From the NCBI RefSeq assembly GCF_000223215.1, contig NC_017243.1:2294001-2358000 (forward strand): 64,000 bases of DNA, given 5' to 3'. Shown here piece after piece: positions 30,939 to 33,758 of the stretch. Origin of the DNA: Brachyspira intermedia PWS/A (GTDB taxonomy: Bacteria > Spirochaetota > Brachyspiria > Brachyspirales > Brachyspiraceae). Each line of letters opens with the position of its first letter. Position 1 is the first letter of the stretch. The position numbers were made by a program, and so were the translations under genes. The notes beneath the pieces are model-generated. The model made no database searches. It worked only from the letters and a program-made list of their open reading frames with translations, and was not told where the DNA came from.

Positions 30939-31076
30939 AGTTATTATTAAAATAAGTTATTTTGTAATAGAAAATTTTCAATAATTTTGAAAAAATACAT
31001 ATTAAATATTGACTTTTAACATGTTTACTATATGATTTTTCCATAGTTTTAATATTTAATTATAAAAGGTTATATA

Positions 31077-31193
31077 ATGTATAATAAATCGCATCGCATC
31101 GCATCGCATCGCATCGCATCGCATCGCATCGCATCGCATCGCATCGCATCGCATCGCATCGCATCGCATCGCATCGCATCTAATTTCAACTAA
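31077..31193 (+). CDS. Short ORF containing the GCATC array (doubtful gene)
   Basis: An ATG with AAAGG seven bases upstream opens a 38-codon frame: MYNK, then six turns of a five-residue SHRIA repeat encoded by the pentanucleotide array, then SNFN and a stop. Because the unit is five bases, gain or loss of one unit changes the frame. With one more unit the frame would instead run on into about 25 mostly hydrophobic residues (beginning LISTKHFIIYIF). No homology is known. It could be a phase-variable small protein or merely a chance frame over a microsatellite. Confidence 0.25.
   Translation: MYNKSHRIASHRIASHRIASHRIASHRIASHRIASNFN
31091..31180. repeat. Pentanucleotide tandem repeat, 18 x GCATC
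   Basis: Eighteen perfect head-to-tail GCATC units with no interruption, preceded by a partial ATC. At 60 percent GC it stands out from its AT-rich surroundings. It lies in the 524-base interval between cutC and the first LRR lipoprotein gene, 219 bases upstream of that gene's ATG. Nothing else is recognised in the interval except AT-rich sequence and a strong GGAGG site at 31323-31327 before an ATG-ACA-TAG mini-frame (31335). Confidence 0.97.
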
Positions 31194-31398
31194 ACATTTC
31201 ATAATTTATATATTTTATATTCTTTTTTCGTATTGCATAAAAAAATTTACGCTATAACAAAATATTTTATTCTATATATTATTAAGCAAATAAATATTGA
31301 TATAAAAATATTATTTCAATTTGGAGGTTTGCTTATGACATAGTTATACTTTTTTATTTAAATGAAAATATTACTAAAAAATTAAATGGAGTAAAATT

Positions 31399-32592
31399 AT
31401 GAATATTAAAAAACTATTATCTATTTTATTTATATGTATAATGTTTGTTGTATCTATGACATCATGCAATAACAGAGTAAATGACCCAACACAAAATGCG
31501 GGCGGAAATGATTCAGGCAATAATGGGAATGATAATGGAAATAATAATAACGGACAAATAGAGCCTACAGTTATAAATATAAATTTGAATGAAAAAATTG
31601 ATGATGCAACATTAACAGAAAAATTTGCCAATTCCAAAAATCAGTATAATAAATATCAGCTTTCAATAGTAGGAGACGTTACAGCTGAAGATTTAAAAAC
31701 TTTAAATCTTTTTCTTGGAGGTAAATATGCTAAAGGAGAATATACACTGCCATTGATATTAGATTTCAAAAAAGCAAATTTTGAAAACAATACTATAAAT
31801 GATTTTGGGAAAAGTTTCGGAATTTATTTGGAAAAAATCACTTTTCCTGATACTTTAAGAACGATAGGCAAAAAAGTATTTGAAGATGTTGAAAATCTTA
31901 AAGAATTAAATTTGCCTGATTCTTTAATTTCAATAGGTGATTTGTCATTTTCTGACATAGCATCACTTGAAAGACTTGTAATACCTGATTCTGTAATGTC
32001 TATTGGAAATGTAGTTTTTACAAGAACATATTTTATCAAAGAACTTAAACTTTCTAAATCTCTCAGAACAGTAGGATTTTCTTCCATAAATTTAAGCTAT
32101 GATGCTACTGCAGTTTTAGATGAAATAAATCTCCCAAATTTAACTTATGTAGATGCTAGTGGTCTTTCTGGAATAAAAACTAAAAAACTCGTACTTCCTG
32201 AAACTTTAATCTATGTTGGACCTAGAGCTCTTGATATTAGCACATCTGAAATGATAAAAAATGAACTTAGAATACCAAAAAGTTTAAAAAGAATAGAAGA
32301 ATATTCTTTTTATGGTACTGATGTTATTTATCTTTATGACACAATAGAGCATATTGATATGACTTATTCAACTAAAGCAGTTGTATATTATGGAACTGAC
32401 CCTAATAAAACGGTAACAGGCGGCGGGATATATGCTTATGATTACAGTGTAGCATTGTATTTGCCTAATGTAAAAGTAGGAGATCCAAATGCTAATCCTG
32501 CAATTTGGGAAACTTTTCTATTAGATAAAAGCAGAGGATATAAATTCCTTCCTCAAAATATACATTTCGGTACAGAGCCTGCACAAAATTAA
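31399..32592 (+). CDS. Leucine-rich-repeat (BspA/LRR_5 type) lipoprotein 1
   Basis: A 397-residue secreted lipoprotein. The signal peptide (about residues 1-23) ends in the lipobox SMTSC, and an Asn/Gly-rich linker follows. Residues about 135-320 hold LRR_5/BspA-type repeats with the pattern FPDTLRTIGKKVFEDVENLKEL and IPDSVMSIGNVVF. Such proteins in oral and gut bacteria are surface-exposed and bind host or bacterial ligands. GGAG precedes the ATG. It is 14 bases from a paralogue, and the two are likely one transcript. The GCATC array lies upstream. Confidence 0.88.
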   Translation: MNIKKLLSILFICIMFVVSMTSCNNRVNDPTQNAGGNDSGNNGNDNGNNNNGQIEPTVININLNEKIDDATLTEKFANSKNQYNKYQLSIVGDVTAEDLKTLNLFLGGKYAKGEYTLPLILDFKKANFENNTINDFGKSFGIYLEKITFPDTLRTIGKKVFEDVENLKELNLPDSLISIGDLSFSDIASLERLVIPDSVMSIGNVVFTRTYFIKELKLSKSLRTVGFSSINLSYDATAVLDEINLPNLTYVDASGLSGIKTKKLVLPETLIYVGPRALDISTSEMIKNELRIPKSLKRIEEYSFYGTDVIYLYDTIEHIDMTYSTKAVVYYGTDPNKTVTGGGIYAYDYSVALYLPNVKVGDPNANPAIWETFLLDKSRGYKFLPQNIHFGTEPAQN

Positions 32593-32606: not shown

Positions 32607-33758
32607 ATGAAGCATAAAATTCTTACAGCTATTTTTTTAATATTATTAATTGTATCTTGCAAAAATAATACTATGGATCCGTCATCTTCAAATAATGATA
32701 ATGATAATAATAACAAACCGCCTATAGAAAATCCTATAAAAAGTACTGTTATTAATATAACTTTGGGTGAAAAGGTAGATTCAGAAACTATCAATACAAA
32801 ACTTGATAATTCATTTAATGAAACAGGAAAATATGAAATAGAAATAATAGGAGATATGACTGATACTGATTTGAAGGCTTTAAACTCTGCATTAAAAGCT
32901 AAATTTACAAGCCCTTCTATAAAATTAAGTTTGAAATTGAAAGAAGCTAATATACCTAATAATACTATAACTAGCAGTTTTGGAGAAGGTTATTTATCAT
33001 CTATAGAAAAATTAATACTTCCGGACAGTGTTTCCATGATAGAAAATGACTCTCTTAGCCTACTACCCAATTTAACAGAATTAGAACTTCCTGAGAATTT
33101 AATTATAGTAGGAAATAATGTATTTAAAGATATAAGTAAATTAACAAGTCTTAATATGAAAAATCAGATTCTTGAAATAGGAGATAATTCATTTTGCCAG
33201 CTTTCATCTTTAACATCAATTAATATTTCTGATTCTTTAAAAATTATAGGAAGATATTCTCTTTCAGGAGCTAAAAATATTAAAACAATTACATTGCCTT
33301 ATTATTTAAGCTATATAAAAGAGTATGCATTTTCTGATTGGACTTCATTAACAGAAGTAATATTTAATGAAAATACAGCTATTATAGAAAGTTATGCATT
33401 TAATAACTGCACTTCTTTAAAAATTATAAATTTTGAAAAAGCATCTGCTTTATTTACATATGTATTTGTCAATGCATTTTCAGGAATAAATGGATTAGAT
33501 AAGTTATATATTCATTCTTCTGCACAAGTAAAAATAGATGATAATGTTTTTAATAATGTAAAAAATATTATTATAAAAGGAAATAGAAATGATTTTGTTT
33601 CTCTCACAATAGGAGGGGATTTATCATCTTCCAAAATTTATTTTCCAGATATAAGAAATGGAAGCACGTATCAAAATTATGAACTTTGGAAAGGTTTTTT
33701 AAGGAAATCTGGAGAGTTATGGAGAGAAGATCAAATATTATATAACCAGACTATATAA
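32607..33758 (+). CDS. Leucine-rich-repeat (BspA/LRR_5 type) lipoprotein 2
   Basis: A 383-residue paralogue of the preceding gene with the same layout: signal peptide ending in LLIVSC, an Asn/Asp-rich linker, a related domain beginning VINITLGEKVD, then LRR_5 repeats such as LPDSVSMIENDSLSLLPNLTEL and LSYIKEYAFSDWTSLTEV. AGGAG precedes the ATG. The shared domain before the repeats (IGDMTDTDLKALN against VGDVTAEDLKTLN) shows tandem duplication followed by strong divergence. A terminator follows. Confidence 0.88.
   Translation: MKHKILTAIFLILLIVSCKNNTMDPSSSNNDNDNNNKPPIENPIKSTVINITLGEKVDSETINTKLDNSFNETGKYEIEIIGDMTDTDLKALNSALKAKFTSPSIKLSLKLKEANIPNNTITSSFGEGYLSSIEKLILPDSVSMIENDSLSLLPNLTELELPENLIIVGNNVFKDISKLTSLNMKNQILEIGDNSFCQLSSLTSINISDSLKIIGRYSLSGAKNIKTITLPYYLSYIKEYAFSDWTSLTEVIFNENTAIIESYAFNNCTSLKIINFEKASALFTYVFVNAFSGINGLDKLYIHSSAQVKIDDNVFNNVKNIIIKGNRNDFVSLTIGGDLSSSKIYFPDIRNGSTYQNYELWKGFLRKSGELWREDQILYNQTI

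Follow-up and report, generated by a model that had tools for sequence, protein, structure and literature searches.

The GCATC array of the window, by which we mean the whole 64,000-nucleotide stretch of Brachyspira intermedia PWS/A DNA analysed here, is in our judgement likely to be the part that varies in a phase-variable leader ORF, which would control the operon behind it through translational coupling or by averting premature termination. The reading frame of this leader probably decides whether the downstream surface-protein genes are made.

Tandem Repeats Finder places an array of period 5, with 18.6 copies and 100% matches, at positions 31088-31180, of which 31091-31180 are filled by exactly 18 perfect GCATC units; a four-unit GCATC pattern gave 15 overlapping matches, as against 0 in 100 shuffles. 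The eighteen perfect units of the preliminary description are borne out by this repeat call, the exact unit count and the shuffle control. Its placing of the array in intergenic DNA is not, as the array lies within a small ORF with its start codon at ATG 31077. Upstream, on the forward strand like the other features of the window listed here, lie a promoter-like site, TTGACT-16-TATGAT (31009-31036; 10 of 12 consensus positions, and hence a consensus match rather than a mapped start), and a Shine-Dalgarno (SD) sequence, AAAAGG (31064-31069), which is positioned 7 nt before the ATG, with related leaders laid out alike. In its present frame, the leader ORF (31077-31193, 38 codons) reads MYNKSH(RIASH)n...NFN and terminates at the TAA of 31191-31193; the repeat reads RIASH in all three frames, and the array is without stops in any of them. 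The exit region (31181-31257) holds the stops of the three frames at 31183, 31193 and 31257, the last being the end of the long (ON) frame. By frame arithmetic, 18 units lead to the stop at 31193, 19 units to the longest frame and 17 to the shortest, and at 18 units the locus is predicted to be OFF. Because the array sits within a short ORF, the gain or loss of a unit alters the reading frame, and the likely switch in a translated leader is this change of frame rather than a change in promoter spacing. The window combines a perfect short-unit array of sufficient length for slippage with a consequence for the reading frame, which are among the marks of a slipped-strand contingency locus. Phase variation by slippage ahead of surface genes, as proposed from the first reading of the sequence, fits these features well and gains strength from the genus comparison, although that reading had overlooked the leader ORF.

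The first gene that the leader would control starts at ATG 31399, 218 bases 3' of the array, with a GGAG SD at 31388-31391. It encodes a putative lipoprotein of the LRR_5 (BspA) type (31399-32592; Pfam PF13306, E = 4e-24) and is followed by a second operon gene for a putative lipoprotein of the same type (32607-33758; PF13306, E = 1.5e-51). Both ORFs begin with a stretch that resembles a signal sequence and lipobox by eye, in agreement with the two LRR lipoproteins previously announced at this position. The search for orthologues of the window lipoprotein returned similarity at the LRR level only (31% to its own neighbour and at most 46% over short stretches elsewhere), and there is therefore no orthologous locus for comparison.

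The leader itself could be compared across the genus, for which we used one genome per species from 26 Brachyspira species. GCATC arrays of at least three units are present in 19 of the 26, and the reversed pattern in none; pattern scans found ACAGTCT arrays in 16 species and AGAAATC arrays in five, each with 0 for the reversed control. Heptamer leaders, the first of which were those of L230 (ACAGTCT) and of L257 and L258 (AGAAATC), were reached by a search with the DNA of one leader and a model of the conserved leader element described below. Arrays of none of the three units occur in four genomes (G001, G007, G010 and G019). These three units are the ones covered and others may be missed; the number of repeat units is at least three.

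The GCATC sample consists of the window and 37 further array stretches with their flanks, 38 in all; a single array split between two contig ends probably accounts for both L151 and L152. Wherever no contig end cuts the array, it sits just after a start codon. In 35 of the 38, two of the exits reach a stop in at most 24 nt and the third is longer, extending from 75 nt up to an in-frame fusion with the gene, as occurs at L147, L160, L174 and L176; the ON frame is the one entered in just six stretches, below one third. Among 63 distinct leaders, drawn from every repeat type, 94% are preceded at a similar distance by a sigma-70-like promoter that matches at least 10 of 12 positions, compared with 15% of shuffles. 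The heptamer loci share the anatomy of the GCATC leaders, often in a cleaner form, with exits at +2/+3 and +6/+7. The repeat unit is for this reason interchangeable, and what is kept is a 5- or 7-nt unit inside a leader ORF. Furthermore, unit number differs between close relatives, with 22 units in one genome and 10 in another whose upstream DNA is 97.9% identical, and 13 and 19 in a further pair of close species.

The end of the long frame corresponds to the position of the gene behind it. Of 31 representative loci, 28 have a long frame that extends to within 35 nt of the gene start or past it, a distance attained by a mean of 7.5 and a maximum of 15 loci in 400 rounds with shuffled leaders; the combined P of 1e-14 is not to be taken literally, since some of the representatives are related and the gene starts were chosen by us from SD and ORF. 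The remaining three fall short by more, with a gap of 141 nt in the window, 76 nt at L161 and 78 nt at L328. An ATGA overlap between long frame and gene is found at L143, L149, L167 and L171 and, among the heptamer loci, at L325, L327, L332, L334, L343, L346 and L301. The products of the first genes behind the leaders include lipoproteins, glycosyltransferases (GT2, GT11, GT61 and DXD type), an MBOAT acyltransferase, FkbM-type and other methyltransferases, an OMP-barrel-like protein (a weak match), an MGDG-synthase-like protein, a chemoreceptor, TM2/zinc-ribbon proteins and radical SAM proteins, together with metabolic cases, a glycine reductase component and a creatininase. Most of the predicted targets, not all, are surface related. 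One of the metabolic cases, L161 (G015), has a leader with 24 GCATC units 263 nt upstream of a glycine/sarcosine/betaine reductase component gene and is apparently a phase-variable metabolic operon.

Beyond the array, the leaders share a conserved element, which in the window is TTTTCGTATTGCATAA (31225-31240), recognised by the pattern TTTTNGYATTGCAWAA and by enrichment of ATTGCA. The pattern has a single occurrence in the 3.3-Mb genome, in the window leader. Of 73 leaders, 40 have ATTGCA in the 200 nt that follow the array, where 3.1 would be expected, and the leaders that carry it differ in their repeats and their genes. Every copy within 130 nt lies inside the long frame, yet in all three registers, because of which the element looks like a nucleic-acid signal; a peptide motif is ruled out, since every register with respect to the ON frame is represented. 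We also considered a conserved hairpin around it (AATGCC...GGCATT), for which covariation was not above that of shuffles. The element is conserved as primary sequence.

In the switch that we propose, the promoter would drive a single transcript in which the lipoprotein operon follows the short leader ORF. Repeated GCATC has no stop codon in any frame, and five is not divisible by three; each unit added or removed by slipped-strand mispairing would therefore divert the ribosome translating the leader into one of three exit frames. Two of these would stop at once, leaving the operon OFF, while the third would take the ribosome through the ATTGCA element towards the first downstream gene start; in this ON state, gene expression would be raised via translational coupling or by the prevention of premature termination. 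We infer that slippage takes place within the strain, that it affects expression and that coupling is the means, the last being favoured because of the ATGA overlaps and because ON frames stop at gene starts. The OFF state is accounted for neither by a terminator in the window leader nor by a general masking of the SD. Such masking was seen in L143, L145, L169 and a few others, and is overall not significant (P = 0.14). Known RNA families were sought in the window leader, and none was found.

The window is an atypical copy of this design. In a coupled gene pair, the upstream ORF ends at or overlaps the next start, whereas the long frame of the window ends well short of the gene, at 31257. An A7 run (31239-31245) lies where this frame overlaps a second open frame, and may mark a register break or a sequencing error. 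The second open stretch (31194-31343, 49 codons), which is in the present leader frame, ends just beyond a GGAGG (31323-31327) and an ATG ACA TAG (31335-31343). The PWS/A genome, a 3,304,788-bp chromosome with a 3,260-bp plasmid, was sequenced with Roche 454 only (PMC3163572), and because the early stop of the ON frame adjoins a homopolymer in such an assembly, the window copy may be misread or decayed. PWS/A has a second GCATC array, of four units and upstream of a lipoprotein gene (L141, G000:C2:2860967), and the leader there is out of register with its relatives L147 and L160 near a T run. That there are two such register breaks, in an assembly made from 454 reads alone, suggests homopolymer errors; true decay is possible. 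That the switch has decayed at the window locus in PWS/A, the design being real in the genus and this copy failing to reach its gene, is suggested by the missing 141 nt and by the second leader being likewise out of register, but we hold it to be doubtful, as both breaks lie near homopolymers and the array, promoter, SD and ATTGCA element of the window are intact.

The closest known system is that of the Streptococcus gallolyticus pil1 and pil3 loci, in which read-through of a terminator is governed by GCAGA repeats within the gene for a leader peptide (PMC3894217). The window shares with it a pentanucleotide array in a leader ORF that lies downstream of a promoter and is equipped with an SD and ATG of its own and, by sequence logic only, the setting of leader frame and length by unit number; as with the long pil1/pil3 leaders, those of the Brachyspira model would switch on downstream surface genes. 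This raises the alternative of classical attenuation, in which a long leader disrupts a premature intrinsic terminator and the switch is purely transcriptional. Attenuation has been demonstrated for pil1 (PMC3894217), and the GCATC leaders of Lachnospiraceae-type MAGs, described below, end at or in strong terminators. Within Brachyspira, one group of leaders, family C (L150, L158, L159, L162 and L177), has a hairpin and T-run inside the long frame, and attenuation may therefore serve some loci. For the window it is unlikely, as its leader, in common with most Brachyspira leaders and unlike pil1, lacks a premature intrinsic terminator, and the gene start, rather than a terminator, is what the frequent ATGA overlaps indicate. 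The Brachyspira long frame typically ends at the start of the downstream gene, which the pil1 leader does not. Rho-dependent termination in an untranslated OFF leader is a possible variant. Further differences from pil1/pil3 are the GCATC unit and the two heptamers, the dozens of loci and the conserved ATTGCA element.

It might also be supposed that the array alters the spacing or accessibility of promoter or regulator sites, as in transcriptional phase variation or through a repeat-binding protein. A weaker promoter-like sequence, TTAATA-18-TATAAT, does end at 31078, adjoining the array, and the TAACTGA heptamers of Beggiatoaceae, which are similarly multi-locus repeats upstream of genes with a proposed translational action, are thought to be bound by a regulator near start codons (PMC4679880). 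Those units contain a TAA, lie mostly within several nucleotides of the start codon and are proposed protein-binding sites, whereas the Brachyspira repeats would be frame-shifting leaders. The array begins only after the end of the conserved promoter, and the 5- and 7-nt units, which have no sequence in common, show one and the same exit-frame pattern, as neither binding nor spacing predicts; this reading is therefore very improbable. Equally little probability attaches to a neutral microsatellite without a role: unit number does differ freely between species, but promoter, start codon, exit pattern, ATTGCA and target position are conserved across unrelated loci with three repeat units. Finally, the preliminary description drew attention to each GCATC, which we take to be an SfaNI site, as one of a tandem series of methylation or cleavage sites. 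An epigenetic action of these sites found no support and has next to no likelihood, given that heptamers lacking GCATC form the same architecture, and that GCATC is not confined to the array (the window has 66 GCATC and 32 GATGC in total).

The frame-switching leader that we favour also resembles phase variation by simple sequence repeats within coding genes, such as the tetranucleotide repeats of Haemophilus influenzae (PMC2651432), in which units that are not a multiple of three shift the frame of mainly surface-related targets. There the repeat resides in the switched gene, whereas in Brachyspira it resides in a separate leader ORF, except at the fusions L147, L160, L174 and L176. The literature searched, which leaves most subscription papers outside it, contains no account of repeat-based phase variation in Brachyspira. 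Taken as a group, the Brachyspira leaders resemble a pil1-like switch varied at genus scale, of which the window locus would be a putative copy.

A broader proposal is that of a genus-wide phasome, in which one design of promoter and leader cassette with interchangeable repeats would switch dozens of mostly surface-related operons by coupling, with the shared ATTGCA serving a common factor; we offer it tentatively, with the balance somewhat against it. Brachyspira includes pathogens of pigs and poultry, and the roughly 70 candidate switches would amount to a readable list of surface genes able to vary, which bears on surface differences among isolates and among clones of one strain. In one group of leaders, family A (L146, L149, L153, L157, L163, L167 and L172), the leader is near-identical up to ATTGCA, and the genes behind it change from species to species, as though an exchange of genes or of cassettes had taken place there; because of this pattern, cassettes may be exchanged between operons.

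GCATC arrays are also found in MAGs of Lachnospiraceae, Eubacterium and Oribacterium, in a conserved leader ORF, M(R/Q)KSDTLN(RIASH)n (L097, L101, L102, L103, L113, L122, L125, L126, L133 and L138). The scan samples only part of these leaders, since its pattern began with AATCGC. In six of them (L097, L101, L102, L103, L125 and L138), one of the exit frames runs up to or into a strong intrinsic terminator with a dG of about -27 to -35, and judged by this layout they are candidates for a textbook pil1-type attenuator built with the repeat unit of the window. The comparison suggests that pil1-like leader-ORF switches form a wider class in unrelated gut bacteria, whose outputs number at least two: disruption of a terminator and coupling to the gene start. 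The genes that follow the MAG terminators, where readable, encode a secreted protein, in some cases a large one, or an acyltransferase.
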